Source: Flavobacteriales bacterium
Lineage (GTDB): Bacteria; Bacteroidota; Bacteroidia; CAIKAF01
Direction: 5' to 3'
Length of the DNA: 64,000 nucleotides
Assembly (NCBI GenBank): GCA_022402535.1
Contig: JAKRSD010000026.1
Coordinates: 1-64,000 of the forward strand
Part shown: one piece after another, positions 14,538 through 39,032 of the stretch
Layout of the letters: every line of letters starts with the position of its first letter
Position numbering within the stretch: the first letter of the stretch is position 1
Notes under the pieces: model-generated
Databases searched by the model: none
Seen by the model: only the letters and a program-made list of their open reading frames with translations
What the model was told of the DNA's origin: nothing
Program-made: the position numbers and the translations under genes

Positions 14538-17500
14538 TTATCGAACAATCAACCTAAGATTTACCGTCTCGTTTTGGACATTTACTTCTATAATATAAAT
14601 TCCGGGTTTCAGCCCTAAATTTTTGGCAGACAGGGTAACCGGAGTTTCAGAAATAGTGGATTTTTCAAACAATACCTTACCATGCATATCTGTGATTCTA
14701 ATCCGGTCTATGGGTGCTGAGTCAGACGTTACTAATGTAAATAAATCTTCGGATGGATTGGGTTGCAATCCCAATAGAGAAATATTGTTTTCTGAAATAC
14801 CGACATTAAGCGTCAACGAAAGTGTCAATGTCTCCGTGCCGCATTCGTTAGTGAGTACTACGGTTACGGTGTAATTTCCGTTACCGGAATACGTATGTTC
14901 AGGTGCATTATCTGAAGATGTGTTTCCATCTCCAAAATCCCAGGCGGCAGTATAAGGCGAAGAAATTCCGCTCACCGAGAAGTTGTAGGTAAATCCGTTT
15001 TGATTTGAAACGATGCTTCCGCCGGATGGAGGAGAAATGATATTCAGATTAACGATTGTAGAAGCCGTGGTCAGATTTTGCGAAGTACAGGTTACCAGAC
15101 ATCGGAAGAAAGCGTGTGTTCCGGCCGTAGCATTATAATCGCTGTTGTTGGCTCCGTTAATATCGGTAAATGTATTTCCATCTGTAGATTGTTGCCATTG
15201 GTATTCATAGAATACAGCCTGAGCGGCGTCCAATCCCGTGAGCGAAAGGGTAAAATCATCGCCCGTGCATAAGTCGGTTGAAATGGCTTGTGCTGTGGCC
15301 TGGTCAGGAGCCCCTTCGCAGCCCACAGTAATCAACAGGGTTGCCGTGTCCGATCCGCAGGCATTGGTGGCTGTGGCAGTAACGGTAAATGTACCGCCCG
15401 CCGCATACGTGTATGAGGGAGAACTTCCCATCCCGAATGCTCCGTTCCCAAAATTCCAAAATACAGAACTTGCATTTTGCAGTCCGTTTGCCGTAAACTG
15501 ATATTCGCCACCATTATGTGTTTCAGAGATAGAACCGATAACGGGTACAGGTATAAAATTCACGGAAATGATATTAGAAAACGCGCTTTGTCCACTGAGG
15601 GTACATGTCACTTCACAGCGGAAGAATGTGGTTTCACTGATATTGGTGGTATACGGAGATAAATCAGCCCCCGGAATATCATTAAAATTCACCCCGTCTG
15701 TGGAGGATTGCCACTGAAGAGAAAGCGTAGGTGAAATCAACGGATTCAGCCCCGTTATCTGTAGGGTGAAATCTTGCCCTAGACACACAGATTGTGCATT
15801 TGACGATATGGTTCCTCCGCTCGGAGTACCTTCACATCCGATAAAAATAGGCAGAGAGGCCGTGTCAGCCCCGCATGCATTGGTCACGATTAGCGTTACC
15901 GTATAAGCGCCGCCGGTAGTGTATGTATGCGTGGGTGAAGGAAGGGTAGATGTATTACCGTTTCCAAAGTTCCACGAGTATCCGGTAACGTTTTGAACGC
16001 CATTAGCGGTGAAGGTATATTGTCCCAGCGTATGTGTTTCGGAAATGGATGCAACGGAAGGCAATGGCGTTATAGAAACCAATACCTGCCCGGAGGTATC
16101 AGACAGCCCGCTTGCGCTGCAGGTAACAATACAGGCAAAGTATGTGGGCTGGGTTATGCTTGTGGAAAAAGTTTGGTTTGTGTCTCCGGGTGAAACGGTG
16201 AAATTGACACCATTCAACGAGGTAATCCACTGAAAAGAAAGGGATGGAACTTCACCGATACTGAGTCCGGAAAGAGAAAGAGATACATTTCCCCCACTGC
16301 ATACAGATGTGGCTCCTGCTACGGCATTACCAGGGTTTGGTGTTCCTGAGCATCCAAACACGATAGGAATGGCCTCATCTGCTCCCCGGTAGGCGGCAGC
16401 ACTTCTGGGTTCCTGGTCTATGTCGGTAAGCACATCGGGTAAAAGAGGCGCAAGCAATGCCGCATTTCCGATAGAAGCTCCGGTAAGATGCAGGTCAGTG
16501 AGTGATACAAAGTTCACCACGGCATCGTTTGAATTCACTTCGTTTCCGGGGGCTCTCACAGCCTGATATGGCGCAAACGTGGTGTATAAATCGGTTCCCC
16601 AGCGGATCATGAATCCGGGAGGACCATTGTATGTGTTATAATCCATGTTCATGGTGCCGGAAATATTGGTGGCTGCCATGGCAATATGTTGCAGTCCGGC
16701 TGTACCTCCGGTTCTTTCATTTACAAAGAGGTTATTTTCTATTTCAAATATGTTAGAAACATTGGAAGCCGTACGATAAAAAGCTGCCGAGCCCACGGCT
16801 CCTGCCGAACCTCCCGAATTTAAAACACCGCCTATTCGTACACTGTTATGAACCACTCTTCCCGATGTGGGATTAGAACCTGTATATTCTATGCCGATGA
16901 GTGTGGTATTCACCCCGTTTCCTGAAGTCAGGGACACGAAATTGTTATAAATAATCGAATGATTCACCCCAGAAACGGAACGGATATTAATGGCTTTCAC
17001 CGTTCCTGTACTGAATAAGTCATAAATCCGGTTATTACGTATAATCGTAGTATCTGTCTGCCCGTCATACAAAATTCCGAAAGCCCCCTGACCTGTTGTG
17101 GTGGTGTTGTAAATAGAACAGGAATCTATGGTCAGCTTACCCGTTCCGGCCTGACTCCATATAGCCACAAATATTACATTGGTGAATTCACACCCGAAAA
17201 TCACATTATTCCGGTTCGGATTAGCTGACGTCCCGCTTGAATTAAGCAAGTATCTGCCTGACAAGAACTTGCAATATTCTACCAGGTTGTCCGAATTGCC
17301 CGTCGGGTTTGCTGCCGATGTGCCGAAAAACAGCCCCCTTCCTGCACTGCCTGTTGTAGAATTTAAAAAGGTACAGTAACGGAGTTGATTAAAGCTTGCT
17401 CCATTGGTTAATGTAACCGTATTTGAACTGCTGGTTGTGCCCAGATTACTGAATGTAAGTTGGCCTACATTACCTGTTCCTCCCGGTCTTCCATCCAAAA

Positions 17501-17858
17501 TAACATAATCGGCATCGTTCAAATTTAAAACGGCTCCACCCGGCTGACTTGCCTGTACCAATATGGAAGCTGCCCCGGCTGCCGGTCTCAGTGTGATCGT
17601 ATTGGCAGCACTTGCCCCCGTTTTTGCCACAAAAGTGATGGGATAAGTTTCAGAAGCGCCCGTATAGGTGTTTTCAATTTCTATGATGTAAGCCTGGGAG
17701 AGCGTGGCCGGTATGGCACCGTATGCTTCTCCGATGGAAGCATGCGACGAAATGAGCACTCCGCCTCCGTCTTTCAGGTTTACGGAGTTCGTTTGCGCTT
17801 TGGAATGCAAACAAAATGCAAAAAGTAGAATTGTCGGCAAGAAGTAAAAATTTTTCAT
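14538..17858 (-). CDS. Giant T9SS protein: beta-helix plus PKD and Ig-like repeats
   Basis: A 1106-residue secreted protein. A signal peptide ends near residue 21. Residues about 30-490 form a right-handed parallel beta-helix (many N-rich rungs), closed by a DIDQEPRS...YRGADE segment. Next come alternating Ig-like modules (each opening with GC-G-P and a FQW/LQWQSS-DG motif) and three PKD modules with WxFGNG/WDFGDGNTS. The last 75 residues are a T9SS sorting domain. It shares module types with the three tandem genes at 26294-37702 but in a different order. Likely an adhesin or surface structural protein; no enzyme signature. Confidence 0.88.
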   Translation of the reverse strand: MKNFYFLPTILLFAFCLHSKAQTNSVNLKDGGGVLISSHASIGEAYGAIPATLSQAYIIEIENTYTGASETYPITFVAKTGASAANTITLRPAAGAASILVQASQPGGAVLNLNDADYVILDGRPGGTGNVGQLTFSNLGTTSSSNTVTLTNGASFNQLRYCTFLNSTTGSAGRGLFFGTSAANPTGNSDNLVEYCKFLSGRYLLNSSGTSANPNRNNVIFGCEFTNVIFVAIWSQAGTGKLTIDSCSIYNTTTTGQGAFGILYDGQTDTTIIRNNRIYDLFSTGTVKAINIRSVSGVNHSIIYNNFVSLTSGNGVNTTLIGIEYTGSNPTSGRVVHNSVRIGGVLNSGGSAGAVGSAAFYRTASNVSNIFEIENNLFVNERTGGTAGLQHIAMAATNISGTMNMDYNTYNGPPGFMIRWGTDLYTTFAPYQAVRAPGNEVNSNDAVVNFVSLTDLHLTGASIGNAALLAPLLPDVLTDIDQEPRSAAAYRGADEAIPIVFGCSGTPNPGNAVAGATSVCSGGNVSLSLSGLSIGEVPSLSFQWITSLNGVNFTVSPGDTNQTFSTSITQPTYFACIVTCSASGLSDTSGQVLVSITPLPSVASISETHTLGQYTFTANGVQNVTGYSWNFGNGNTSTLPSPTHTYTTGGAYTVTLIVTNACGADTASLPIFIGCEGTPSGGTISSNAQSVCLGQDFTLQITGLNPLISPTLSLQWQSSTDGVNFNDIPGADLSPYTTNISETTFFRCEVTCTLSGQSAFSNIISVNFIPVPVIGSISETHNGGEYQFTANGLQNASSVFWNFGNGAFGMGSSPSYTYAAGGTFTVTATATNACGSDTATLLITVGCEGAPDQATAQAISTDLCTGDDFTLSLTGLDAAQAVFYEYQWQQSTDGNTFTDINGANNSDYNATAGTHAFFRCLVTCTSQNLTTASTIVNLNIISPPSGGSIVSNQNGFTYNFSVSGISSPYTAAWDFGDGNTSSDNAPEHTYSGNGNYTVTVVLTNECGTETLTLSLTLNVGISENNISLLGLQPNPSEDLFTLVTSDSAPIDRIRITDMHGKVLFEKSTISETPVTLSAKNLGLKPGIYIIEVNVQNETVNLRLIVR

Positions 17859-23496: not shown

Positions 23497-23574
23497 AAAA
23501 CAGACTGTTGAAAAAATCCATTAGGATAATTTCTGTTTTTGACTAAATTGTTGCCCAAATTAATGACAAAAAAA

Positions 23575-24594
23575 ATGGCAAAAGACGAAAAATCGGCAAA
23601 ATTAGAGGCGTTAAAGCTCACATTAGATAAGCTGGACAAAACATACGGTAAGGGAACCATTATGCGCTTGGGCGATAATGCCGTGGAAACCATGGAAGTA
23701 ATTCCTTCAGGCTCACTTTCGTTAGACTTGGCTTTAGGGGTGAATGGTTATCCGCGCGGCAGGGTCATTGAAATATATGGTCCGGAGTCTTCAGGTAAAA
23801 CCACATTAACCATACACGCGATAGCCGAAGCCCAAAAACAGGGAGGCATTGCCGCATTCATTGATGCAGAGCATGCTTTCGACCGTTTTTATGCCGAAAA
23901 ATTAGGGGTTGACACCGAAAATCTCTTGATTTCGCAACCCGATAATGGCGAACAGGCTTTAGAAATTGCCGATAATCTGATTCGTTCAGGGGCTATTGAT
24001 ATTATTGTAATTGACTCCGTGGCGGCTTTGGTTCCCAAAAGCGAACTGGAAGGTGAAATGGGGGATTCTAAAATGGGGCTACATGCAAGGCTCATGTCTC
24101 AGGCCATGCGTAAACTAACGGCATCCATCAGCCGTACCAACTGTACCTGCATTTTTATCAACCAGCTGCGCGAAAAAATCGGAGTTATGTTCGGTAATCC
24201 CGAAACCACTACGGGCGGAAATGCCTTGAAATATTATGCTTCTATTCGAGTGGACATTCGCAGAACCGGTCAGATCAAAGAAGGAGATGAAATCGTGGGT
24301 AACCGCATTAAAGTAAAAGTGGTGAAAAACAAGGTGGCACCTCCTTTCCGTCAGGCAGAGTTTGATATTATGTACGGACAGGGAATATCCAAAACCGGTG
24401 AAATCATCGACATGGCCACCGATTTGAATATTGTGAAAAAATCGGGTTCATGGTTCAGCTACGGAGAAACAAAACTCGGTCAGGGGCGTGATTCAGTAAA
24501 AGCCTTGTTAGCCGATAACCCTGAATTGGCTGAAGAACTTGAACAAAAAGTGAAAGAAGCCGTATATGCCAATGCGGCGGCTAAGAAAAAATAA
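23575..24594 (+). CDS. recA: Recombinase RecA
   Basis: A 339-residue RecA from the ATG at 23575 ([20 protein letters not shown]); in-frame ATG 23563 and TTG 23541-region starts are possible but extend beyond the usual family start. Walker [10 protein letters not shown] lies near residues 69-77, and the L2 loop region [20 protein letters not shown] is intact. It drives homologous recombination, which matters here because the tandem genes at 26294-37702 show signs of gene conversion. The stop TAA is followed directly by the next ATG. Confidence 0.97.
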
Positions 24595-25089: not shown

Positions 25090-25148
25090 GCCAATGAAAT
25101 TATTCTTGGCAAACCTTGCTCTATCTATTACTTTTGGAAAAAAATTAC

Positions 25149-26168
25149 ATGAGGACTTTCCCCCTATACATTTTTCTTATTTCATCGATGGTGGTGCTTT
25201 TTACCTTTTTTTCCTGCGGAAATAAAAAGGAAGGGAATGCCAAAAGTAAAGTCGGGGATACGTTAAGTGTTTTGTCCAATTTTGACCTGCTGATTGAAGA
25301 AGATCCCGATAACCCTGAACTCTATTTTCAAAGGGCAGAATTTCATCTTGGACAGGATAACGTATTTTCAGGTATGGCGGATATAGAAAAAGCCATCGCC
25401 CTGGATTCCACGAAAGCTAAATATTATACTCTTCTGGCTGATTTTAATCTGGTGATGAATAAAATCCCTGAAGTAAAAAATAACCTGAACAGAGCTCTTC
25501 AGCTTGAGCCCGAAAATACCGATGCATTATTAAAATTTGCCGAGTTTCAGCTCTACCTGCAGGACTATCCCCAAGTATTTGAGCACGTAAATAAAGCCCT
25601 TCGGATCAACCAATATTTAGCTAAAGGGTATTTTCTAAAGGGCATGGCATACATTGAAATGGCGGATACGCCGATGGCAGTGAGCAGCTTTCAGACTTGT
25701 GTGGAACAAGATCCTGAATATTTTCATGCGCATATGCAGTTGGGGTTAATTTTTTCTTCTAAAAACGACCCTGTTTGTGTTACCTATTTTAATAATGCGA
25801 TTCGTGTAAATCCCACGAAACCGGAGTCCTATTATGCACTGGGCTATTTTTATCAGGAAAACGGACAATTCGAAGCCGCCCTTCAGAGCTACGACAATAT
25901 GCTTAAAGTGAGTCCTAAAAACGCAGCGGCGTTGTATAATAAGGGGTATATTCATTTAGTGTATCTGAAAAATTACGATGAAGCCATTTCCTGGTTCACT
26001 CAAGCCATCCAGTCGGATGGACGATATGCAGATGCTTACTATAACCGTGGTTTTGCGTATGAACTGAAGAAAAATAAGGCTGCGGCCAAGCAAGATTACG
26101 AAAATGCGCTGAGAGTAAATCCTGACCACGAACTCGCCCCCAGAGGACTTTCTCGTATTGGTAAATAA
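25149..26168 (+). CDS. TPR-repeat lipoprotein
   Basis: A 339-residue protein. The signal sequence ends in a lipobox (FFSCGN). About eight tetratricopeptide repeats fill residues 45-335, for example YYNRGFAYELKKNKAAAKQDYENAL. The ATG at 25149 is chosen over a TTG at 25116 because it places the signal peptide at the N-terminus. It is probably anchored in the envelope as a protein-binding scaffold; the partner is not evident. Confidence 0.87.
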   Translation: MRTFPLYIFLISSMVVLFTFFSCGNKKEGNAKSKVGDTLSVLSNFDLLIEEDPDNPELYFQRAEFHLGQDNVFSGMADIEKAIALDSTKAKYYTLLADFNLVMNKIPEVKNNLNRALQLEPENTDALLKFAEFQLYLQDYPQVFEHVNKALRINQYLAKGYFLKGMAYIEMADTPMAVSSFQTCVEQDPEYFHAHMQLGLIFSSKNDPVCVTYFNNAIRVNPTKPESYYALGYFYQENGQFEAALQSYDNMLKVSPKNAAALYNKGYIHLVYLKNYDEAISWFTQAIQSDGRYADAYYNRGFAYELKKNKAAAKQDYENALRVNPDHELAPRGLSRIGK

Positions 26169-26293: not shown

Positions 26294-29200
26294 ATGAGAT
26301 TAAAGATTTACAAAACGCAAGGTCTGCGAAAAGTGACCATGTTGTTTTCTGCAATCCTTTCTTTCACAATGGGGTATAGTCAGTATTGTACTCCTGTGAT
26401 GAATTGCGGTTCAGCAGACTTGATTAACAACTTCAGTACAACTGGAGGAGTGGCAAACATTTCCAATCTAAACTCGGGTTGTAGTGGTGGTTATATTTAT
26501 TATGCCGCGCAAACCGTATCACAAAATCCGGGTCAGAACGTGAATATTTCGGTTCAGTCAGGTCCTTCTTGGGGTCAAGGCTTCCGAATTTGGGTGGATT
26601 GGAATCAAAATGGAAGTTTTGCAGATCCGGGTGAGGATGTGTGGAATTCAGGTGGTTCGGGTACAGGAGTTTATAACGGTGTAATTGCGGTGCCTGTAAC
26701 GGCTATTCCCGGTACAACACGTATGAGAGTTATGGCTCAGTATGCTACGGTGCCTCTCTCCGGTGATTTTTGTCAGAATTTTTCCAATTTTGGAGAGGTT
26801 GAGGATTATAACTTTCAAGTTATTCCTACAGCACCTTGTTCAGGAGTTCCCAATGGAGGTACAGCAACTGCTTCAGTTTCTACGGTTTGTCCCGGGGTGT
26901 CTTTTTCAATTACATCAGCCGGGGTAAGTTTTGGTGCTGGAACCGAATACCAATGGCAATCTTCTCCTGATGGGTTTACTTGGACAAATATTGCCGGCCA
27001 AACAGGAGCGGGCTTCTCAGGTACTCAGTCTGCGGCTACAAATTACCGTCTTCGTGTTATTTGTACAAGTGGTCCGGATACCGCATACTCCAACAGTGTT
27101 CTTGTTGACCTGACTCCTTTCTTAAATTGCTACTGTACCTCAGGAGCTACCAGTACATTTGATTCAAACGTACATGGAGTAGAATTCGGAACTATCAATA
27201 ATATTACAGGTGCTGCCTGTGGCACATATTCTGATTTTACTTCAATTCAGACAAACATTTTCAAAGGACTGAGCTACCCAATAACTATTACTGCAGGTTC
27301 GTGTGGAGGTGCTTATACTCGTTACGGTAAAGTATACATAGATTATAACCACAACGGATTATTTACCGATCCGGGCGAAGAAGTGTTTTCATTCGGTCCC
27401 ACAAATGCAGGTCAGGTTGTTCAGCCATTCAATGGAAGCGTTACAATTCCTGTTACTGCTGCTGACGGTTTAACCCGTATGCGTGTTATTGTAAATGAGA
27501 CATTTGCATTGACAAATGTTAATCCATGCGGAACATTTACCTGGGGCGAAACTGAAGATTATTATGTAAATATCTTACCTCCACCTGCCGATGAGGCCGG
27601 TGTGTTGGCCATTACCACTCCCGGCATCGCTGCTTGTAATTTAGGTCAGGAAATCTGGGTTGAATTGCAGAATCTGGGAACCAACGATCTTACTTCCGCT
27701 ACATTTACGGTGGCCGTTAACGGATTTAACATTCCTGTTTCTCCATGGACTGGATTGGTTCCTGCCGGTACGTCTGCAGAAGTACAGGTGCCTGTAACTT
27801 ACGTTCTTGCCGATGGCGACAGTGTGAGTGTAACCGTTTCCGATCCAAACGGAGTAACGGAAAATGCGCTATTTTTATTCAACAACCAGACAGGCCGCCG
27901 TATCTGGGCCGGTTTATCGGGTGTGAAAACCGTTTACGGAGCCGGTGCGGATTTCGTGGATATGGATGAAGCCATTGATGCATTAGTGTTCCGCGGGGTA
28001 TGCGATACAGTGTATTTCCAGATAGCTACAGGAAACTATACTTCACAACATGTAATGACCCAGTATCCTGGTGCGGGTCCCGGCCGTCTGGCCGTGTTTG
28101 AATCGGCTTCGGGCAATGCGTCTGATGTAACCTTTACCCATTCTGCTTTAGCCGCTGCTGATAATTATGTATTCCGTTTCAATAACGGAGACGGGTACAT
28201 GTTCAGAAACCTGACCGGTATCGCTACGGGAACCGCATTCTCTAAAGTAATTGATATCCTTGGCGGTTCATCGGATTTAACGTTTGAAAACAACGTATTT
28301 GTTGGAGATACCTTAGCTCCGTACAACATGGGCGACTTTGAAAGAATCGTGATTGCTTCTACCGGAGCCAGCAACGATAACCGCACGGTTCTCCGCAACA
28401 ACCATATCATGGGCGGTAACCGCGGTCTGAATTTGGGTGGTGCCACCGGATTATATGAAACCGGTAACGTGGTGGAAGGCAACGTGATTGAAAAATATGC
28501 TGCCATCGGTGGTATTTTTGGCAACTTATCAGGTTACCAGGTAAACAACAACGTATTCCGTCCGCGTACCGACCTTACGCAGGAAGCCTTCGGGGTGTAT
28601 GCGGTAGGAACTATTGACGGAGCTGGCATTTCAGCCAACGATTACCTGTCATACCGTCCGGGTTCAGCTATTTTCCTTTCCAATGTAAAAGGTGGTGGTA
28701 ATGAAGTATTGGTATCCAATAACTTTATTTTCTCAGGCGACTCAGGGGTTGCTACTTTAGCACGTGGTGTTTTAATCCAGGATGTTAATTCATCTGATGT
28801 TATTTTGGCCAATAATAGTATCGCATTTTATAACAAAAACCCACAAAGCGGTGCAATTACCGTGGTTGATGGTTCACAGATTCGTTTCTACAACAATAAC
28901 GTAGGAGCATTCGGAACGGCTCCCGCAGCCCGTATCGAAAAATCATACAGCGTAGCCGCTTCCAACCACAACAATATGTTTGGAACCAATCTGGCTAATG
29001 TATTGGGTACAGTTTATACTTCATTGACCAACTTCCAGTCTGTTACAGGATTTGATGCCAACTCGGTAAGCGTTAATCCCGGTTTCAACGGAACCGATTT
29101 ACATACCTGCGCACCCGAACTGAACGGTGCAGCCATGCCAATGGCTTCCGTAGCGGTTGACTTTGATGGAGATGCCCGTTCTACGACTCCTGACATTGGT

Positions 29201-29923
29201 GCCGATGAGTTTGTGGGCGATGCCAACGGATTACTGGCCGCCGATTACTTTGAAAAATGTCCTTCAGTAGAAGTAACTCTGGGAGGTGCGCCTTTAAATG
29301 GGGTAACTTACAGCTGGACTCCTTCAGGTAATACCTCTGAAATTACGGTAACTGCTGCCGGTACTTATGTGGTAACGGCTACTTCTGCCTGTGGTTCATT
29401 CAGCGATACGGCCGTGGTGGTAAACAATCCGTTGCCAACAGCAAGCTTCACAACTTCTACGGTAGGACTGGCTTCCATCTTTACCAATACCTCCACCAAC
29501 GGTACTTCATACCTATGGGATTTTGGTGATGGAAATACATCCACAGAGTTTAGTCCTTCACACGTTTACACAACGGCAGGAACTTATTCAGCAACATTGA
29601 CTGTTACCAACGAATGTGGTTCAGCAACATTTGGACCTCAGCCTGTAAACGTAATCAATGCCGGCATCGAAGAAAACGATATGGCTTCTGTAGCCCTGTT
29701 CCCGAATCCTACTTCGGGCCAGTTTACGGTGACTCTGAACAACATCAGCAGCGAAACGGTATTGACTGTGATTGATGTTACAGGTAAAGCCGTAATGGTT
29801 AAAAACGTACCTGCTGGCGTAAATCAGATTACCTTGGATGCCACCCAATTTGCATCGGGTGTTTATTCAGTAAAAGTAAGCAGCGGAGACTTTAACAAAG
29901 TAATCCGTTTGGTACGCAAATAA
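26294..29923 (+). CDS. Tandem T9SS surface protein 1 (two GEVED, beta-helix, PKD)
   Basis: A 1209-residue protein. The signal peptide ends near residue 29 (GYSQ). The unique N-terminal module (about 31-175) is itself a GEVED domain ending in GEVEDYNFQV. An Ig-like module follows (WQSSPDGFTW), then a second GEVED domain to about 425 (GETEDYYVNI), a CARDB-like domain (about 435-530), a right-handed beta-helix (about 545-960) closed by TPDIGADEF, a PKD domain near 1050-1110 (WDFGDGNTS) and a T9SS type A sorting domain (FPNPTSGQF ... GVYSVKV). No enzyme motif is visible. Likely a surface adhesin or fibre protein. It has its own terminator. Confidence 0.9.
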   Translation: MRLKIYKTQGLRKVTMLFSAILSFTMGYSQYCTPVMNCGSADLINNFSTTGGVANISNLNSGCSGGYIYYAAQTVSQNPGQNVNISVQSGPSWGQGFRIWVDWNQNGSFADPGEDVWNSGGSGTGVYNGVIAVPVTAIPGTTRMRVMAQYATVPLSGDFCQNFSNFGEVEDYNFQVIPTAPCSGVPNGGTATASVSTVCPGVSFSITSAGVSFGAGTEYQWQSSPDGFTWTNIAGQTGAGFSGTQSAATNYRLRVICTSGPDTAYSNSVLVDLTPFLNCYCTSGATSTFDSNVHGVEFGTINNITGAACGTYSDFTSIQTNIFKGLSYPITITAGSCGGAYTRYGKVYIDYNHNGLFTDPGEEVFSFGPTNAGQVVQPFNGSVTIPVTAADGLTRMRVIVNETFALTNVNPCGTFTWGETEDYYVNILPPPADEAGVLAITTPGIAACNLGQEIWVELQNLGTNDLTSATFTVAVNGFNIPVSPWTGLVPAGTSAEVQVPVTYVLADGDSVSVTVSDPNGVTENALFLFNNQTGRRIWAGLSGVKTVYGAGADFVDMDEAIDALVFRGVCDTVYFQIATGNYTSQHVMTQYPGAGPGRLAVFESASGNASDVTFTHSALAAADNYVFRFNNGDGYMFRNLTGIATGTAFSKVIDILGGSSDLTFENNVFVGDTLAPYNMGDFERIVIASTGASNDNRTVLRNNHIMGGNRGLNLGGATGLYETGNVVEGNVIEKYAAIGGIFGNLSGYQVNNNVFRPRTDLTQEAFGVYAVGTIDGAGISANDYLSYRPGSAIFLSNVKGGGNEVLVSNNFIFSGDSGVATLARGVLIQDVNSSDVILANNSIAFYNKNPQSGAITVVDGSQIRFYNNNVGAFGTAPAARIEKSYSVAASNHNNMFGTNLANVLGTVYTSLTNFQSVTGFDANSVSVNPGFNGTDLHTCAPELNGAAMPMASVAVDFDGDARSTTPDIGADEFVGDANGLLAADYFEKCPSVEVTLGGAPLNGVTYSWTPSGNTSEITVTAAGTYVVTATSACGSFSDTAVVVNNPLPTASFTTSTVGLASIFTNTSTNGTSYLWDFGDGNTSTEFSPSHVYTTAGTYSATLTVTNECGSATFGPQPVNVINAGIEENDMASVALFPNPTSGQFTVTLNNISSETVLTVIDVTGKAVMVKNVPAGVNQITLDATQFASGVYSVKVSSGDFNKVIRLVRK
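27827..27985. repeat. 159-bp block identical to 31627-31785
   Basis: Base-for-base identical between tandem genes 1 and 2 across the junction of CARDB-like domain and beta-helix. The same stretch of gene 3 differs at many third-codon positions. Interpreted as a recent gene-conversion tract. Confidence 0.85.
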
Positions 29924-29943
29924 ATTAGCAGAACGATTTTGCG

Positions 29944-29978
29944 AAAGGGCATTCTCATTGAGAATGCCCTTTTTTTTG
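29944..29978 (+). terminator. Rho-independent terminator, tandem gene 1
   Basis: Stem GGGCATTCTCA / TGAGAATGCCC with a short loop, followed by eight T. It lies 20 bases after the stop. Confidence 0.92.
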
Positions 29979-30010
29979 TTAACAAAACTTAATTGAATCG
30001 AAATTTCGTT

Positions 30011-30018
30011 TTAATTTG
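30011..30018 (+). promoter_or_regulatory. Candidate -7 box TTAATTTG, tandem gene 2
   Basis: One mismatch to TAnnTTTG, 21 bases before the ATG of the second tandem gene and downstream of the first gene's terminator. Confidence 0.5.
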
Positions 30019-30039
30019 TTGTCATAAAATAATTTAATT

Positions 30040-33000
30040 ATGAAATCAATTCTATCATTTCATTGGGTTAAGATTAAGCTATTGTTATTGTCTTTTTGCC
30101 TAGTTAATGCATCAAAGGCTCAGATAACCATCGCTACAAATCACATTAACAACAACGGAAACGGGTCAGTTACATTTAATGTGCAAAACACAAATGCATT
30201 TGACATAATAATAACTGGTGTTTCCGCTCATTTAGGTACCAGTGCCAATAATCAAATACAGTTGCTTTATCGCACATCGGCCATTAACGATTTGGCAACA
30301 CCTTGGGATTATGGTACAGTAGGTGCGGGTCAAAACGGTTGGGTTTTAGCAGGAACGGGTACCGTAAATTCAAATGTGGCAAATGGTGTTGTGCCTGTAT
30401 TATCAGGCTTAAATTTGGTTATTCCAGCAGGAGCCACGTACACTTTGGGGCTTAGTGCCACCACGCTTCAGTATATGACATTAACCAATGGTAATGGAGC
30501 CAATGTAAATACATTTTCAAATGCAGGCGTGAACTTGATAACAGGGGATGGTGTCAGCTGGGGAGGCACAGCATATCCTTCTACGCCTGCCAACTACCCC
30601 AGAGGATTTGCAGGTAGTATAACCTTTATACCCGCTTTGCCATGTTCAGGGGCACCTTCAGCAGGAACTATTACGGCTACAGCATCGAGTGTTTGCCCTT
30701 CGGTGAACTTTACGATTAATAACACCGGGGCAACATTTGGAACAGGAACCTTGTATCAGTGGCAGTCTTCACCGGACGGATTTTCTTGGAATGATGTTGC
30801 CGGACAAAATCAACCTACTTTTAATGGTTCCCAAACCACAGCACTCAACTACCGTTTGCGTGTAATTTGTTCTTCGGGTCCTGATACCGCGTATTCCAAT
30901 TCGGTATTTGTTGATATGAACCCTTTCTTTAACTGTTATTGTGCTTCTGGGGCAACAAGTACTGCAGATTCAAATATTGATCGGGTTGAATTTGGAACCA
31001 TAAATAATTTGACAGGAGCCGCCTGTGCAACGTATTCAGATTTTACTTCTATTCAGACAAATCTATTTAAAGGGTTGAGTTATCCAATTACGATTACTGC
31101 AGGAACCTGTGGAGGGAACTTTACAAGAAACGGTAAAGTATACATAGATTATAATCACAACGGGTTATTTACGGATCCGGGAGAAGAAGTTTTTGCTTTC
31201 GGGCCTACCAATCAGGCCGTTCAAGCTTTTAATGGAACCGTAACTATTCCAGTAACCGCTACTGACGGAGTAACCCGTATGCGGGTAGTTGTAGTAGAAA
31301 CTGGATTATTGGCAAATGTAAATCCATGCGGAACATACACCTGGGGAGAAACAGAGGATTATTTAGTAAATATCTTGCCTCCGCCTGCCGATGAGGCCGG
31401 TGTATTGGCCATTACTACTCCCGGTGTTGCAGCCTGTACCTTAGGTCAGGAAATCTGGGTCGAATTGCAGAATTTAGGAACTAACGATCTGACTTCCGCT
31501 ACATTTACCGTGGCCGTTAACGGGTTTAACATCCCCACCCAGCCCTGGACAGGATTGGTTCCTGCCGGTACGTCTGCAGAAGTTCAGGTGCCTGTAACTT
31601 ACGTTCTTGCCGATGGCGACAGTGTAAGTGTAACCGTTTCCGATCCAAACGGAGTAACGGAAAATGCGCTATTTTTATTCAACAACCAGACAGGCCGCCG
31701 TATCTGGGCCGGTTTATCGGGTGTGAAAACCGTTTACGGAGCCGGTGCGGATTTCGTGGATATGGATGAAGCCATTGATGCATTACTGTTCCGCGGGGTC
31801 TGCGATACGGTGTATTTCCAGATAGCCACAGGAAACTATACATCACAACATATACTGACCCAGTATCCGGGTGCGGGTCCCGGCCGTCTGGCCGTATTTG
31901 AATCGGCTTCGGGCAACGCGTCGGATGTGAGCTTTACCCATTCCGCCCTGGCTGCGGGTGATAACTTCGTATTCCGTTTCAATAACGGCGACGGGTACAT
32001 GTTCAGAAACCTGACGGCTAGAGCCACGGGTACCGCATTCTCTAAAGTAATTGACATTCTTGGCGGTTCATCAGATCTGACGTTTGAAAACAACGTGTTT
32101 GTTGGAGATACCTTAGCTCCGTACAACATGAGTGATTTTGAAAGAATCGTGATTGCTTCTACAGGAGCCAGCAACGATAACCGCACGGTTCTCCGCAACA
32201 ACCATATCATGGGCGGTAACCGCGGTCTGAATTTGGGCGGAGCCACCGGATTATATGAAACCGGTAACGTGGTGGAAGGCAACGTGATTGAAAAGTATGC
32301 TGCTATCGGCGGTATTTTTGGTAACTTATCAGGTTATCAGGTAAAAAACAATGTATTCCGTCCGCGTACCGACCTTACCCAGGATGCTTTCGGGGTTTAT
32401 GCTGTGGGTACAATCAGTGGAGCTGATATTGCAGGTAATGATTATTTGTCATACCGCCCTGGTTCTGGGATTTTCCTTTCTAATGTAAAAGGAAGTGCTG
32501 TGAATGAAGCTATTGTTTCCAACAACTTTATTTTCTCGGGAGATTCTGGAGTTACAACTTTAGCCCGCGGTATATTCATTCAAGATGTAAACACAGCGGG
32601 TATTACTCTTGCTAACAATAGTATTTCTTTTAATAATAATAATCCGTTAAGTGGAGCCATCACAGTAGTAGACGGTACCCAAATTTATTTTTACAACAAC
32701 AACGTAGGGGCATTCGGCACGGCTCCCGCAGCCCGTATCGAAAAATCATACAGTGTTGCTGCTTCCAACCACAACAATATGTTCGGAACCAATCTGGCCA
32801 ATGTATTGGGTACGGTATACACCTCACTGGCCAACTTCCAGTCTGCTACTGGATTTGATGCCAACTCGGTAAGTGTAAATCCCGGTTTCAACGGAACCGA
32901 TTTACATACCTGCGCACCCGAACTTAACGGGGCAGCCCTTTCATTGGCTTCTGTAACGGTTGACTTTGACGGTGATGCCCGTTCTGCGACTCCGGATATC

Positions 33001-33726
33001 GGTGCCGATGAGTTTGTGGGCGATGCCAACGGATTACTCGCTGCTGATTACTTTGAAAAATGTCCTTCGGTAGCCGTTACGTTAGGTAATGCTCCTCAAA
33101 GTGGAGTAACTTACAGCTGGACTCCTGCAGGAAGTACCTCTGAAATTACGGTAACTGACGCAGGCACCTATGTGGTAACGGCTACATCTGCCTGTGGTTC
33201 ATTCAGCGATACAGTTGTGGTGGTAAACAACCCATTGCCTACGGCAAGCTTTACATCAACATCTGTGGGTCTGGCTTCCATCTTTACCAACACTTCTACC
33301 AACGGTACATCGTATCTGTGGGATTTTGGTGACGGAAACACTTCCACTGAGTTCAGCCCGACACATGTATACTCATCAGCGGGTGTTTATTCGGCTAACT
33401 TAACGGTAACCAACGAATGTGGTTCAGCTACATTTGGTCCGCAGCCTGTAAACGTAATCAATGCCGGCATCGAAGAAAACGATATGGCTTCCGTATCTCT
33501 TTTCCCGAATCCAACTTCGGGTCAGTTTACGGTAACCCTGAACAACATCAGCAGCGAAACGGTACTTACCGTGATTGATGTGACAGGAAAAGCGGTATTG
33601 GTTAAAAACGTACCTGCGGGTGTAAACCAGATTACATTAGACGCCACTTCTTTTGCATCGGGCGTATACTCGGTGAAAATAAGCAGCGGAGACTTTAACA
33701 AAGTAATCCGACTGGTGCGCAAGTAA
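30040..33726 (+). CDS. Tandem T9SS surface protein 2
   Basis: A 1228-residue protein. The signal peptide ends near residue 28 (NASKAQ). Residues about 29-205 form a beta-rich module unlike the N-termini of its two neighbours (ITIATNHINNNGNGSVTFNV). From the PCSG...WQSSPDGFSW Ig-like module onward it is collinear with protein 1: GEVED (GETEDYLVNI), CARDB-like, beta-helix, TPDIGADEF, PKD and T9SS sorting domain. The body is closest to protein 1 in the CARDB/helix region and closest to protein 3 near the C-terminus, a mosaic. Confidence 0.9.
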   Translation: MKSILSFHWVKIKLLLLSFCLVNASKAQITIATNHINNNGNGSVTFNVQNTNAFDIIITGVSAHLGTSANNQIQLLYRTSAINDLATPWDYGTVGAGQNGWVLAGTGTVNSNVANGVVPVLSGLNLVIPAGATYTLGLSATTLQYMTLTNGNGANVNTFSNAGVNLITGDGVSWGGTAYPSTPANYPRGFAGSITFIPALPCSGAPSAGTITATASSVCPSVNFTINNTGATFGTGTLYQWQSSPDGFSWNDVAGQNQPTFNGSQTTALNYRLRVICSSGPDTAYSNSVFVDMNPFFNCYCASGATSTADSNIDRVEFGTINNLTGAACATYSDFTSIQTNLFKGLSYPITITAGTCGGNFTRNGKVYIDYNHNGLFTDPGEEVFAFGPTNQAVQAFNGTVTIPVTATDGVTRMRVVVVETGLLANVNPCGTYTWGETEDYLVNILPPPADEAGVLAITTPGVAACTLGQEIWVELQNLGTNDLTSATFTVAVNGFNIPTQPWTGLVPAGTSAEVQVPVTYVLADGDSVSVTVSDPNGVTENALFLFNNQTGRRIWAGLSGVKTVYGAGADFVDMDEAIDALLFRGVCDTVYFQIATGNYTSQHILTQYPGAGPGRLAVFESASGNASDVSFTHSALAAGDNFVFRFNNGDGYMFRNLTARATGTAFSKVIDILGGSSDLTFENNVFVGDTLAPYNMSDFERIVIASTGASNDNRTVLRNNHIMGGNRGLNLGGATGLYETGNVVEGNVIEKYAAIGGIFGNLSGYQVKNNVFRPRTDLTQDAFGVYAVGTISGADIAGNDYLSYRPGSGIFLSNVKGSAVNEAIVSNNFIFSGDSGVTTLARGIFIQDVNTAGITLANNSISFNNNNPLSGAITVVDGTQIYFYNNNVGAFGTAPAARIEKSYSVAASNHNNMFGTNLANVLGTVYTSLANFQSATGFDANSVSVNPGFNGTDLHTCAPELNGAALSLASVTVDFDGDARSATPDIGADEFVGDANGLLAADYFEKCPSVAVTLGNAPQSGVTYSWTPAGSTSEITVTDAGTYVVTATSACGSFSDTVVVVNNPLPTASFTSTSVGLASIFTNTSTNGTSYLWDFGDGNTSTEFSPTHVYSSAGVYSANLTVTNECGSATFGPQPVNVINAGIEENDMASVSLFPNPTSGQFTVTLNNISSETVLTVIDVTGKAVLVKNVPAGVNQITLDATSFASGVYSVKISSGDFNKVIRLVRK
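32836..33161. repeat. 326-bp block identical to 36812-37137
   Basis: Base-for-base identical between tandem genes 2 and 3 across the end of the beta-helix and the start of the PKD linker. Gene 1 differs at many positions here. Flanking sequence immediately upstream diverges between genes 2 and 3, so the tract has a sharp edge. Confidence 0.88.
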
Positions 33727-33742
33727 TTTTATCATAATATTG

Positions 33743-33774
33743 AAAAGGCTGCATGAACAATGCAGCCTTTTTTT
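33743..33774 (+). terminator. Rho-independent terminator, tandem gene 2
   Basis: Stem AAAAGGCTGCAT / ATGCAGCCTTTT with a 5-base loop and a run of T. Its stem sequence is unrelated to the terminators of the other two tandem genes. Confidence 0.92.
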
Positions 33775-33808
33775 ATGTTAATAATTTTAAAAAAAAGTAA
33801 AATCAGCG

Positions 33809-33816
33809 TAAGTTTG
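33809..33816 (+). promoter_or_regulatory. Candidate -7 box TAAGTTTG, tandem gene 3
   Basis: Perfect TAnnTTTG, 19 bases before the ATG of the third tandem gene. Confidence 0.6.
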
Positions 33817-33835
33817 ACGCCTAAATTTTCAGTTT

Positions 33836-36800
33836 ATGAATCATACAATTACAAAAAATCAGATATTTAAAAATCTGAAACCTTTATTCGAAACAGGGGG
33901 AGTTTCAAATAAAGCGTACAAATTTTATTTCTCAATTTTTGCGTTTTTATTACTAATTATCTCTAAATCAAGTGCACAAAGTTATAACTTGACTTTTGCG
34001 GCTAATTCAGGTAACCCAGCTCCGGGTTATGTCACTACGGATATTAGTACAACAGGGACAATAGTTATTGATCAAAGTCTTTCTGCAAATGTTTGGTCAT
34101 CGGTACAAACGCTTCCGTTTCCTTTTACTTTTTACGGCGTACCGGTTACCCAGTATAAAGTAAGTGCAAATGGAGTATTGACTTTTGATGTAGCTTCAGC
34201 AATACTTCCTGCAGGAAACGTAAGTATTCCAACGCCTAATTTACCCGATTTGAGCATTGCATTTATGTGGGATGAGTTTACCGCTGCACCTCCCACCGCT
34301 ACGGGTGACCGTGCCTATGCAAATACTTACGGAACAGCACCTAACAGACAACATTGGGTTTGGTACTTTTCCTATGAAATAGGTAATCCGCAATATTCCT
34401 TTGCCTACTGGGCAGTAGTGTTGGAAGAGTCTACAAATAATATATATGTTATCGATCAATACTCTATAGCGGGAACAAGTGGAACCACAGTTGGTGTTCA
34501 GTTAAACTCTACTACCGGTATTCAGGATCCCTTGTCACCTAATATTGCCCGTCAGGGAAATGGTACTACGCTGGCAGATAATGATGTTTGGACGTTTCAG
34601 TATTTGACGGCTCCTTGTAATGGAGTGCCTGCTATCGGAACAGCAACCGGTCCTGCAACAGGATGTCCATCTTCAAATTTCACAGTAACAGTAACCGGAA
34701 CTACGCCTTCCGTAGGCCTTACTTATCAGTGGCAATCATCACCAGATGGATTTTCTTGGACCGATATTCCGGGGGCCACAAGTACTTCTTATGCAGGAAC
34801 TATAACTGCCCCTCTGAATTATAGAAGGATGGATATCTGTACAAATACGTCAGACACCTCTTATTCAACACCTCACTTTATTGATGTCAGTCCATTTTTC
34901 AATTGTTATTGTACTTCTGGGGCCACTTCAACTACTTATGGTTACATTAAACGTGTTGAACTTAATACAATTAACAATATATCACCTACTGGCTGTGGAC
35001 AGCAATACACTGATAATACTTCGATTCAGACAAATCTTTTTGAAGGATTATCGTATAACATTTCTCTGGATATCGAAAACTGTTCAGCAGGAACGTATAA
35101 TTATGGTACCCGGGTTTGGATTGATTTTAATCAAAACGGAATTTTTGATGCTACGGAATTGGTTTATAATGGTAATCCTTCTGTTACTGCCGGTGTTACC
35201 ACTACGGTAAACGGAACCGTTACTATACCGGTGGGTTCTCCAAACGGACTAACCCGCATGCGTGTGGTAACCATTGAATCTAATGCAAACCCTAATCCAT
35301 GCGGAACATTCACCTGGGGCGAAACAGAAGATTATCTGGTAAATATTCTTCCTCCTCCTGCTAATGAAGCAGGCGTTTTGGCAATTTCTAAACCTGAATT
35401 AGCTGCTTGTGCTTTGGGCCAGGAAATTTGGGTGGAAATGCAAAATTTGGGAACCAATGATTTAACTTCTGCAACGTTTACCGTAACGGTTAATGGTTTT
35501 AATATTCCTACTCAGCCATGGACTGGACTGGTACCTGCCCAGAGTACTGCAGAAGTACAAGTGCCGGTTACTTACGTTCTTGCTGATGGCGACAGTATAA
35601 ATGTTTCGGTTTCTAATCCTAACGGAGTCACAGAAGATACATTGTTTGCATTTAATAATCAGACAGGCCGTCGCGTATGGGCTGGACTTTCCGGAGTGAA
35701 ATCTGTTTATGGAGCCGGTGCTGATTTTGCAAATATGGATGACGCTGTAGCGGCTTTAGTTTTCCGCGGAGTTTGTGATACGGTAAATTTCCAGATTCCT
35801 AATGGAGATTATGCTTCCAATCATGTATTTGAAGAATATCCCGGTGCCGGACCAGGTCGTTTGGCCGTATTTGAGTCTGCATCTGGTAATGCTTCAGATG
35901 TAATATTCCGTCACTCTGCTATTGCTGCTGCTGATAACTATGTATTCCGTTTTGACGGTGGTGACGGGTATATGGTTCGCAACCTTACGGGTATAGCCGA
36001 GGGAACTGCATTTTCAAAAGTGGTTGATATTCTTAACGGTGCAGATGATTTAACATTTGAAAGCAATGTTTTTGTTGGTGATACAGTTTCAGCTTATAAT
36101 GCATCCGATTTCAATAGAATCGTTATTGCGTCTTCAACCGGTACAGGATCTACCGATTTACGAACAGTAATCCGCGATAATCATATTATCGGAGGTAACC
36201 GGGGTATTAATCTTGGTGCCGCTACAGGCTCATTTGAATTTGGAACCGTGATAGAAGGTAACCTATTTGAAAATTACGGTCATATTGGAGTTATTCTAGG
36301 CGGCCAACAAGGATCTGTCATTAAAAACAATGTTTTCCGCCCCAAATCAAGCTTTACTCAGGATGCTTTTGGTCCTTATCTCAATGGATGTGTCGGTGGC
36401 GGAGAAATTTCAGGTAATGACTACCTCTCTAATCGTACAGGATCGGGAATATTCTTAACCAACGTAAAAGGAGGAGTAGAGTCATTTATAGTAACTAATA
36501 ACTTTATTAATTCTGGAGATACAAATGCTACAGGAGTTTCTAGAGGAATTTTAATTCAGGATGTAAACTCTAATGACATTTTAGTAGCCAATAATAGTAT
36601 ATCATTCCATAGTGATAATGCAACAAGTGGCGCTATCACGGTTGTGGATGGTGTGGATATCCGTTTCTACAATAATAACGTAGGCGCATTCGGCTCGGCT
36701 CCCGCAGCCCGTATCGAAAAATCATACAGTGTTATTGCTTCTGATAATAATAACATGTTCGGAACCAATCTGGCTAACGTATTAGGGTCAGTGTATACAA

Positions 36801-37702
36801 CTTTGGCGAGTTTCCAGTCTGCTACTGGATTTGATGCCAACTCGGTAAGTGTAAATCCCGGTTTCAACGGAACCGATTTACATACCTGCGCACCCGAACT
36901 TAACGGGGCAGCCCTTTCATTGGCTTCTGTAACGGTTGACTTTGACGGTGATGCCCGTTCTGCGACTCCGGATATCGGTGCCGATGAGTTTGTGGGCGAT
37001 GCCAACGGATTACTCGCTGCTGATTACTTTGAAAAATGTCCTTCGGTAGCCGTTACGTTAGGTAATGCTCCTCAAAGTGGAGTAACTTACAGCTGGACTC
37101 CTGCAGGAAGTACCTCTGAAATTACGGTAACTGACGCGGGCACCTATGTGGTCACGGCTACATCTGCCTGTGGATCATTCAGCGATACTGTAGAGGTAGT
37201 AAACAATCCATTACCTACTGCAAGTTTCACTTCTTCAACTGTAGGATTAGCTTCCATCTTTACCAACACTTCTACCAACGGTACTTCGTATCTGTGGGAT
37301 TTTGGTGACGGAAACACTTCCACTGAGTTCAGCCCGACGCATGTATACTCATCAGCGGGAGTTTATTCGGCTAACTTAACAGTAACCAACGAATGTGGTT
37401 CAGCTACATTTGGTCCGCAGCCAGTAAACGTAATCAATGCCGGCATCGAAGAAAACGATATGGCTTCCGTATCTCTTTTCCCGAATCCAACTTCGGGTCA
37501 GTTTACGGTAACCCTGAACAACATCAGCAGCGAAACGGTACTTACCGTGATTGATGTGACAGGAAAAGCGGTATTGGTTAAAAACGTACCTGCAGGTGTA
37601 AACCAGATTACATTAGACGCCACTTCTTTTGCATCGGGTGTTTATTCAGTGAAAGTAAGCAGCGGAGACTTTAACAAAGTGATCCGACTGGTGCGCAAGT
37701 AA
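33836..37702 (+). CDS. Tandem T9SS surface protein 3
   Basis: A 1288-residue protein. An unusually long N-region precedes the hydrophobic core of the signal peptide (about 31-48, ending KSSAQ). Residues about 49-260 are a third, unrelated N-terminal beta module (PFPFTFYGVPVTQYKVSANG ... WDEFTAAPP), resembling beta-sandwich domains that open other Bacteroidota surface proteins. The shared body then follows: Ig-like, GEVED, CARDB-like, beta-helix, TPDIGADEF, PKD and T9SS sorting domain. Codon choice in the middle of the gene is more AT-rich than in genes 1 and 2, while the 3' end matches gene 2 almost base for base. Confidence 0.9.
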   Translation: MNHTITKNQIFKNLKPLFETGGVSNKAYKFYFSIFAFLLLIISKSSAQSYNLTFAANSGNPAPGYVTTDISTTGTIVIDQSLSANVWSSVQTLPFPFTFYGVPVTQYKVSANGVLTFDVASAILPAGNVSIPTPNLPDLSIAFMWDEFTAAPPTATGDRAYANTYGTAPNRQHWVWYFSYEIGNPQYSFAYWAVVLEESTNNIYVIDQYSIAGTSGTTVGVQLNSTTGIQDPLSPNIARQGNGTTLADNDVWTFQYLTAPCNGVPAIGTATGPATGCPSSNFTVTVTGTTPSVGLTYQWQSSPDGFSWTDIPGATSTSYAGTITAPLNYRRMDICTNTSDTSYSTPHFIDVSPFFNCYCTSGATSTTYGYIKRVELNTINNISPTGCGQQYTDNTSIQTNLFEGLSYNISLDIENCSAGTYNYGTRVWIDFNQNGIFDATELVYNGNPSVTAGVTTTVNGTVTIPVGSPNGLTRMRVVTIESNANPNPCGTFTWGETEDYLVNILPPPANEAGVLAISKPELAACALGQEIWVEMQNLGTNDLTSATFTVTVNGFNIPTQPWTGLVPAQSTAEVQVPVTYVLADGDSINVSVSNPNGVTEDTLFAFNNQTGRRVWAGLSGVKSVYGAGADFANMDDAVAALVFRGVCDTVNFQIPNGDYASNHVFEEYPGAGPGRLAVFESASGNASDVIFRHSAIAAADNYVFRFDGGDGYMVRNLTGIAEGTAFSKVVDILNGADDLTFESNVFVGDTVSAYNASDFNRIVIASSTGTGSTDLRTVIRDNHIIGGNRGINLGAATGSFEFGTVIEGNLFENYGHIGVILGGQQGSVIKNNVFRPKSSFTQDAFGPYLNGCVGGGEISGNDYLSNRTGSGIFLTNVKGGVESFIVTNNFINSGDTNATGVSRGILIQDVNSNDILVANNSISFHSDNATSGAITVVDGVDIRFYNNNVGAFGSAPAARIEKSYSVIASDNNNMFGTNLANVLGSVYTTLASFQSATGFDANSVSVNPGFNGTDLHTCAPELNGAALSLASVTVDFDGDARSATPDIGADEFVGDANGLLAADYFEKCPSVAVTLGNAPQSGVTYSWTPAGSTSEITVTDAGTYVVTATSACGSFSDTVEVVNNPLPTASFTSSTVGLASIFTNTSTNGTSYLWDFGDGNTSTEFSPTHVYSSAGVYSANLTVTNECGSATFGPQPVNVINAGIEENDMASVSLFPNPTSGQFTVTLNNISSETVLTVIDVTGKAVLVKNVPAGVNQITLDATSFASGVYSVKVSSGDFNKVIRLVRK

Positions 37703-37721: not shown

Positions 37722-37757
37722 AAAAGGGAGGTTTTGTAAAAAGCCTCCCTTTTTTTA
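37722..37757 (+). terminator. Rho-independent terminator, tandem gene 3
   Basis: Stem AAAGGGAGG / CCTCCCTTT with a 12-base loop and a run of T. Confidence 0.88.
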
Positions 37758-37791: not shown

Positions 37792-37799
37792 TACTTTTG
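37792..37799 (+). promoter_or_regulatory. Candidate -7 box TACTTTTG for sucC
   Basis: Perfect TAnnTTTG, 21 bases before the sucC ATG at 37821; this spacing also supports that start over the upstream TTG at 37797. Confidence 0.6.
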
Positions 37800-37820
37800 G
37801 CGCACATTACAATATTTGAG

Positions 37821-39032
37821 ATGAACTTACACGAATACCAAGGGAAAGACATTTTACAAAAATACGGAGTGCGTGTGCAGCGCGGAATTGTTGCCGATAC
37901 ACCCGAACAGGCTGTAGAGGCTGCTAAAAAACTTCAGGCCGAAACCAATACTCCAATTTGGGTAGTAAAAGCGCAGATTCATGCTGGTGGGCGCGGAAAA
38001 GGTAAAATTGCCGGAACCGAGCAAAGGGGAGTTGCACTCGCAAAAAAAATTGAAGATGTAGAAACGATTGCCCGTAATATTTTAGGTAACCGATTGATTA
38101 CGCTTCAAACTTCTGCCGAAGGTAAAGTGGTAAACAAAGTGTTCGTTTGTGAAGATACCTATTATCCCGGTGATTCGGAGCCTAAAGAATTCTACATGAG
38201 TATTCTTTTGGATCGCGGGAAAAGCAAAAATGTAATCATGTATTCGCCCGAAGGGGGAATGAACATTGAAGAAGTTGCTGAAAAAACACCTCATCTTATT
38301 TTTAAAGAAACCATAGATCCTACTGTAGGGTTACAACCGTTTCAGGCCCGCAAAATAGCTTTTAACTTAGGTTTGAGCGGTGATGCGGTGAAAGAAATGA
38401 CCAAATTCGTGTTTGCCCTTTACAAAGCTTATATGGAGTCTGACTCTGCCATGTTTGAAATCAATCCGGTGTTAAAAACATCTGACAATAAAATTTTGGC
38501 CGTAGATGCCAAAGTAACGTTGGATGATAACTCTTTATACCGTCATCCCGAGTTGGCAGCCATGAGAGATGTTACCGAAGAAGATCCTACCGAAGTAGAA
38601 GCCGGTAACTTCAACCTGAATTACGTGAAACTGGACGGAAATGTGGGATGTATGGTAAACGGAGCCGGCTTGGCTATGGCTACCATGGATTTGATTGCGC
38701 TTTCAGGCGGTAGTCCCGCAAACTTTCTGGACGTGGGAGGAACTGCCGATGCTGCCCGTGTTGAGCAGGCATTTCGTATCATTTTAAAAGATGCCAATGT
38801 AAAAGCTATTCTGGTAAATATTTTTGGTGGAATTGTACGCTGTGACCGTGTAGCCCAAGGCGTGGTTGATGCTTACAAAAACATTGGAGATATTCCGGTG
38901 CCTGTAATTGTTCGCCTTCAGGGAACTAATGCCGAGGAAGCAAAAAAGATTATCGATGAGTCGGGTATGAAAATTTATTCGGCTATCGAATTCCGCGAAG
39001 CGGCTGACCGTGTGAAAGAAGTATTGGCTTAA
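37821..39032 (+). CDS. sucC: Succinyl-CoA synthetase subunit beta
   Basis: A 403-residue ADP-forming succinate-CoA ligase beta subunit, starting MNLHEYQGKDILQKYGV. ATP-grasp domain in the first 240 residues, with KAQIHAGGRGKGK; CoA-ligase domain after it, with the nucleotide/phospho-histidine loop region GGTADAARV and NIFGGIVRCD. TCA-cycle enzyme. The alpha subunit gene (sucD) is not in the window, which is common in Bacteroidota. Followed by a strong terminator. Confidence 0.96.
   Translation: MNLHEYQGKDILQKYGVRVQRGIVADTPEQAVEAAKKLQAETNTPIWVVKAQIHAGGRGKGKIAGTEQRGVALAKKIEDVETIARNILGNRLITLQTSAEGKVVNKVFVCEDTYYPGDSEPKEFYMSILLDRGKSKNVIMYSPEGGMNIEEVAEKTPHLIFKETIDPTVGLQPFQARKIAFNLGLSGDAVKEMTKFVFALYKAYMESDSAMFEINPVLKTSDNKILAVDAKVTLDDNSLYRHPELAAMRDVTEEDPTEVEAGNFNLNYVKLDGNVGCMVNGAGLAMATMDLIALSGGSPANFLDVGGTADAARVEQAFRIILKDANVKAILVNIFGGIVRCDRVAQGVVDAYKNIGDIPVPVIVRLQGTNAEEAKKIIDESGMKIYSAIEFREAADRVKEVLA

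Follow-up and report, generated by a model that had tools for sequence, protein, structure and literature searches.

The window, a stretch of 64,000 nucleotides of Flavobacteriales DNA, carries a tandem array of three large T9SS cargo proteins, g1, g2, and g3, that share one body and differ in their N-terminal modules, referred to below as tips. We consider it probable that these are separately transcribed genes in which recombination between the bodies homogenizes the stalks, moves cassettes at the gene junctions, and renews the N-terminal modules. Judged from sequence, the case consists of mosaic bodies, incongruence between tips and bodies, an orthologous locus at which two species differ by a cassette, and the occurrence of tip B on unrelated stalks, by which the tips are exchangeable cassettes on evolutionary time. 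The three genes are as follows:

26294 to 29923, forward strand: g1, a 1209-aa T9SS cargo protein (ORF call, Pfam, TIGR04183)
30040 to 33726, forward strand: g2, a 1228-aa T9SS cargo protein with putative mature N-terminus Q28
33836 to 37702, forward strand: g3, a 1288-aa T9SS cargo protein with putative mature N-terminus Q48

The preliminary description had reported three adjacent genes with one shared body, and ORF, Pfam, and identity data agree with that account; the ORFs lie exactly at these positions on one strand. The N-termini of g1, g2, and g3 are hydrophobic and end in YS, KA, and SA before a glutamine (read by eye); in g1, the same reading gives a putative signal peptide of aa 1-29 and a mature N-terminus at Q30. 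These N-termini agree with the Bacteroidetes Q-rule (PMC10653852). Each of the three proteins has a sorting domain matching TIGR04183 at 40 bits (cut-off 23) and PF18962 (Por_Secre_tail, type A sorting domain) at 45-47 bits (cut-off 27). Furthermore, the T9SS translocon protein SprA is encoded in the same genome (TIGR04189, 2402 bits; cut-off 200), and this profile was absent from 14 control genomes. Hairpins were found after all three genes:

29943 to 29973, forward strand: terminator-like hairpin of 14 pairs after g1
33742 to 33772, forward strand: terminator-like hairpin of 13 pairs after g2
about 37725 to 37756: third hairpin, after g3, seen by eye

The untranslated sequences around g1, g2, and g3, upstream regions included, are not shared. 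Since the upstream sequences are not shared and a hairpin stands after each gene, the three genes look separately transcribed. The separate hairpins and dissimilar untranslated sequences also bear out the earlier observation that the terminators differ and that the common unit is limited to the coding body. On one side of the array lies a TPR protein (25116-26168), and on the other (37797-39032) an ATP-grasp/CoA-ligase protein of the succinyl-CoA ligase beta kind. Also in the window, recA (23539-24594) precedes the array by about 1.7 kb, a proximity that is probably coincidental, and a separate fourth large protein of 1106 aa, encoded on the reverse strand at 14538-17858, matches the array proteins in several stretches of their Ig-like, PKD, and sorting regions.

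The shared bodies occupy most of each gene:

26828 to 29920, forward strand: g1 body, comprising Ig-like, GEVED, CARDB-like, helix-like, PKD, and type A sorting domains
30628 to 33723, forward strand: g2 body (sequence comparison, Pfam)
34607 to 37699, forward strand: g3 body (sequence comparison, Pfam)

Pfam recognized GEVED, PKD (PKD_4), and Por_Secre_tail in 3/3 proteins, in keeping with that part of the domain list first proposed. The "CARDB" and "beta-helix" entries of the same list are plausible by eye and have no Pfam match in g1, g2, or g3; matches to Ig_7 and Beta_helix were obtained in relatives only. Pairwise amino acid identity among the three proteins was lowest in the Ig-like domain that adjoins the tip (48-63%) and highest in the sorting domain (94-98%), with 55-82% in the body GEVED, 80-96% in the "CARDB," 67-93% in the "helix," and 88-97% in the PKD segment. 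In another part of the source genome (contig C17, L050:2133-7616, reverse strand), an 1827-aa T9SS protein contains an array-like Ig-GEVED pair (about 43-47% identity) followed by a concanavalin A-like lectin domain, that is, the same joint on another body.

N-terminal to each body lies a different module:

26384 to 26827, forward strand: tip type A of g1, a GEVED domain (PF20009) homologous to the body GEVED
30121 to 30627, forward strand: tip type B of g2, no Pfam family, beta-rich AF2 model
33977 to 34606, forward strand: tip type C of g3, with 28-41% relatives on other proteins of the family

In forced alignment, tips A, B, and C are 13-25% identical, and hhalign returned a probability of 0.1-0.4% for A-B, A-C, and B-C with profiles of 4-8 rows only, upholding the earlier statement that the three modules are mutually unlike. 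The positive control, tip A against the body GEVED, reached 99.8%. The tips thus appear mutually unrelated in sequence and may still share a beta-sandwich-like fold. That control also revises the earlier picture of the g1 module as an unrelated tip: it is indeed unlike B and C, but its homology to the body GEVED had been overlooked, and Pfam finds two GEVED stretches in g1, one of them being tip A. In CshA-like adhesins, GEVED has been described as belonging to the stalk (PMC10952558), and "tip" may therefore be a misnomer for g1. For tips B and C, there was no significant Pfam match, one tip C relative matching the nidogen-like NIDO domain weakly (E=0.0021), and none of the three tips retrieved a significant sequence match from PDB. 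AF2 yielded no usable fold for tip C (mean pLDDT 33 from an eight-row alignment). By its position away from the C-terminal anchor, the N-terminal module would be the outermost part of the protein, and this end is presumably the exposed, ligand-binding one, serving as an adhesin or in polysaccharide binding.

We compared the array with those of relatives, using one genome per species and 16 genomes in the order, none of them seen from the source genus; all of these comparisons are therefore between species, and some assemblies are fragmented. Relatives within the family have this body type as well, their arrays comprising one or two genes, so that gene number per array ranges from 1 to 3 in the family with the window included. 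Copies within one relative's genome are 26-58% identical in the helix region, and the sorting domains of array members in relatives are only 21-34% identical. At least five tip types occur on similar bodies in the family, distributed as follows (a and b denote gene copies):

Tip A: window g1, G010a, G013a, G011a, G009a, G005a, G014a, G015a, G001a
Tip B: window g2, G004a, G008b
Tip C: window g3 only
Tip D: G004b, G013b, G011b
Tip E: G010b, G008a

In the body tree, the three window genes form one clade (100/100), and within genus g5 two orthologous gene positions are resolved, one with tips D/E/E and the other with tips B/B/A. G008b is read in two frames, and in this tree its two pieces share a single row, positioned by alignment columns and without repair of the sequence. 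AU tests on the body tree reject a single clade for tip A (2.5e-41), tip B (1e-66), and tip D (2.6e-4). Two side observations concern the distribution of body and tip parts. In G013 and G011 (L051 and L052), proteins of 2145 aa end in a C-terminus corresponding to the body from CARDB to sorting domain (about 34%), preceded by a different and much longer N-terminal region, with tip-B-like matches in the same frames. In the source genome, three tandem tip E matches (43-48%) lie in and beside a 1533-aa frame (C29:247474-248731), and tip E thus occurs as a repeat in the source organism.

The congeners G008 and G010 offer the closest view of a tip difference. Their arrays share flanking genes on both sides (77-88% identity), and across the locus the DNA stays collinear, with identities of about 70-80% (65-83% in most 150-bp intervals). 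Over about G010 6851-7600, identity drops to 43-51%, as for unrelated sequence; the divergent segment of ~0.9 kb comprises the gene 1 sorting domain, the intergenic region, the signal peptide, and the tip, and it runs on into the gene 2 Ig domain. The tip of gene 2 and the sorting domain of the gene before it thus change together. Gene 2 bears tip B in G008 and tip A in G010, and its helix and PKD regions are 77-89% identical between the two. Between G010 and g1, the tips are 61% identical, against 36% for the helix regions, and the tip tree, in which some branches are long, rejects grouping of the G010 tip A with the sister genus (AU p=0.0015). An assembly misjoin, which would be expected only rarely between paralogues that are just 40-60% identical, could still conceivably account for the G008/G010 difference. 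The G008 tip-B gene itself (gene 2, L045:7110-10830) lies in two reading frames with a break near L045 9380-9425, which may reflect a genuine frameshift or an error in the sequence. The swapping of tips proposed earlier is supported in part by these orthologous copies and by the AU rejections for A, B, and D; related species do not carry the same tips in a fixed order free of recombinants.

A serious rival for the G008/G010 event is differential loss, whereby single unequal crossovers would have trimmed an ancestral array of at least three differently tipped genes differently from lineage to lineage, without any tip ever being inserted into an existing gene. We regard it as possible, at a probability short of even. 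An E-A-B ancestor that underwent one deletion per lineage, with crossovers in the bodies, would give E-B in G008 and E-A in G010; the same events would yield a changed upstream sorting domain next to a conserved gene 2 body, and the range of one to three genes per array fits such trimming. Differential loss likewise needs recombination in the bodies, however, and it leaves unexplained both why the tip A of G010 lies closer to that of the window genus than to that of the sister genus and why tip B stands on unrelated stalks.

A second congeneric pair, G011 and G013, differs inside the protein. Between their copies a, GEVED2 is 34% identical and the other segments are 71-93% identical, with 91-93% for the tip, CARDB, helix, and PKD. 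G011a keeps the GEVED2 type of the genus (62-64%) and G013a is the odd one, so that the internal GEVED was apparently replaced in G013. Conversion of the G011a GEVED from its own copy b was considered and rejected on the same grounds. The notion of a fixed stalk and export signal accordingly holds within the source genome but not beyond it, given the low sorting-domain identity among relatives, the inclusion of a sorting domain in the exchanged cassette, and the replaced internal GEVED.

Tip B was also followed beyond the array. Its profile matches 49/395 genomes sampled from the class, and in 16/16 listed loci tip B starts 20-58 residues from the ORF start, just past the expected signal peptide. 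The domains that follow it differ among the scanned loci and include GEVED, fn3, beta-helix, and P-domain. In L056, a Flavobacteriales MAG and the one relative returned by a scan of genome contigs, a 75% identical tip B sits on another stalk with fn3 and Ig_7. Its constant first position ahead of different domains points to a first-position module used on many stalks.

The roles of the two protein parts could instead be reversed, with a helix-like body that is itself functional in binding or cleaving polysaccharide and N-terminal modules that act as accessory, carbohydrate-binding-like domains for substrate range. We think this somewhat unlikely. Related tip-B proteins do have Beta_helix matches, and the AF2 model of tip B, which is of moderate quality and beta-rich (pLDDT 57, pTM 0.59), weakly resembles CBM6 (Foldseek prob 0.97). 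This fold match is below significance (TM 0.34, E=0.06), however; Foldseek found nothing below E=0.001 for the model in PDB, and no catalytic family was detected in the bodies of g1-g3 with Pfam/TIGR profiles.

Recombination between the bodies is recorded at silent sites within the window itself. We tested 716 synonymous third positions in g1-g3 against 5000 shuffles. By pattern counts, 31% (g1-g2), 34% (g2-g3), and 44% (g1-g3) of these sites differ, and with such silent divergence the three genes are not recent clones. Nevertheless, g1 and g2 go 26 successive variable silent sites without differing (shuffled maximum about 6; 0/5000 shuffles), and g2 and g3 go 22 (shuffled maximum about 5; 0/5000 shuffles); for g1/g3, the same shuffle test showed no significant identity run (P=0.13). 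The tracts are located as follows:

27785 to 27997, forward strand: g1 part of the g1/g2 tract, mid-body, with a 159-bp exact match inside
31585 to 31797, forward strand: g2 part of the g1/g2 tract, partner of 27785-27997
32836 to 33161, forward strand: g2 part of the g2/g3 tract, a 326 bp exact match in the C-terminal third
36812 to 37137, forward strand: g3 part of the g2/g3 tract, the same 326 bp exact match in the C-terminal third
33490 to 33594, forward strand: g2 part, in the sorting domain, of a further g2/g3 tract, partner 37466-37570

The most similar pair thus shifts along the body, from g1 and g2 in the middle to g2 and g3 near the C-terminus. Pairwise silent-site identity tracts beyond the shuffled expectation, as found here, mark gene-converting tandem paralogues, and by sequence such tracts are what gene conversion between neighbors leaves. 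The earlier suggestion of recombination inside the bodies is thereby substantiated within the window. A recent duplication of one ancestor followed by separate tip capture, with no continuing exchange, would fit the single clade of the window copies in the body tree. We rejected it as very unlikely on the uneven silent divergence along the bodies: a divergence of 31-44% interspersed with near or fully identical patches contradicts a single recent duplication, and so does the change of best-matching pair along the gene.

Programmed antigenic or phase variation within a population, through silent tip copies or a site-specific recombinase, might be suspected from the observed body sharing, since a constant body with different ends resembles switching systems; silent-cassette switching was rejected as highly improbable, no silent donors being found in the source genome (which has B and C only once and no close duplicate of tip A), the ten neighboring genes scanned including no site-specific recombinase, and the few inverted repeats found not flanking the tips. 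The PilV shufflon combines a constant body with alternative ends. Its likeness to the g1-g3 array is in outline only: the array has no crossover sites or silent ends and no recombinase among the ten neighboring genes scanned, every tip belongs to a complete gene, and a terminator-like hairpin of its own follows both g1 and g2.

Adhesin domain shuffling is already known, and the tandem, stalk-homogenized form described here is a variant of it. Fibrillar adhesins of the CshA/PAD type likewise consist of an N-terminal module, GEVED, a stalk, and a C-terminal surface anchor, with modules combined with various stalks; in that group, whose adhesive domain is CshA NR2, shuffling was inferred on the scale of the bacterial kingdom (PMC10952558). 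What sets the present locus apart is the tandem array, the homogenized bodies, the unrelated first modules, the Ig-like domain that separates tip from GEVED, and export by T9SS; g1-g3 contain GEVED, and tips B and C lack a Pfam or PDB sequence match. In Porphyromonas gingivalis, Kgp, RgpA, and HagA are also T9SS cargo with interchangeable adhesin modules, and they show domain rearrangements, allelic exchange, and a mosaic that does not follow strain phylogeny, for which gene conversion was proposed (PMC5266723). Variation in that case lies mainly in adhesin modules behind the protease (PMC5266723), whereas in the present tandem array the first domain varies and is exchanged together with the intergenic region. 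Among the open-licence papers searched, none mentioned GEVED and type IX secretion together.

For the mechanism that we favor, recombination between bodies with movement of junction cassettes, the bodies of neighboring genes would serve as long homology arms. Gene conversion and unequal crossover between them would keep the bodies alike, and recombination across a gene junction would move a single cassette made up of the upstream sorting domain, terminator, promoter, signal peptide, and N-terminal module. New N-terminal modules would come in from other T9SS cargo proteins, the outer end of the protein being renewed and the remainder kept. The route is presumably RecA-type homologous recombination, and selection may favor tip diversity. 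A further proposal, which we consider unlikely and put forward tentatively, is that this is a standing system in this Bacteroidota family, in which junction cassettes move often enough for populations to differ in tip combinations, matching phage, host, or polysaccharide diversity. Tip B, a module without a Pfam family that comes first on many large proteins across the class, would be useful for binding and structure work. Taken together, the array suggests a concrete and testable route by which surface proteins of Bacteroidota may diversify without dedicated recombinases, with the body as homology arm and the gene junction as the exchanged unit.
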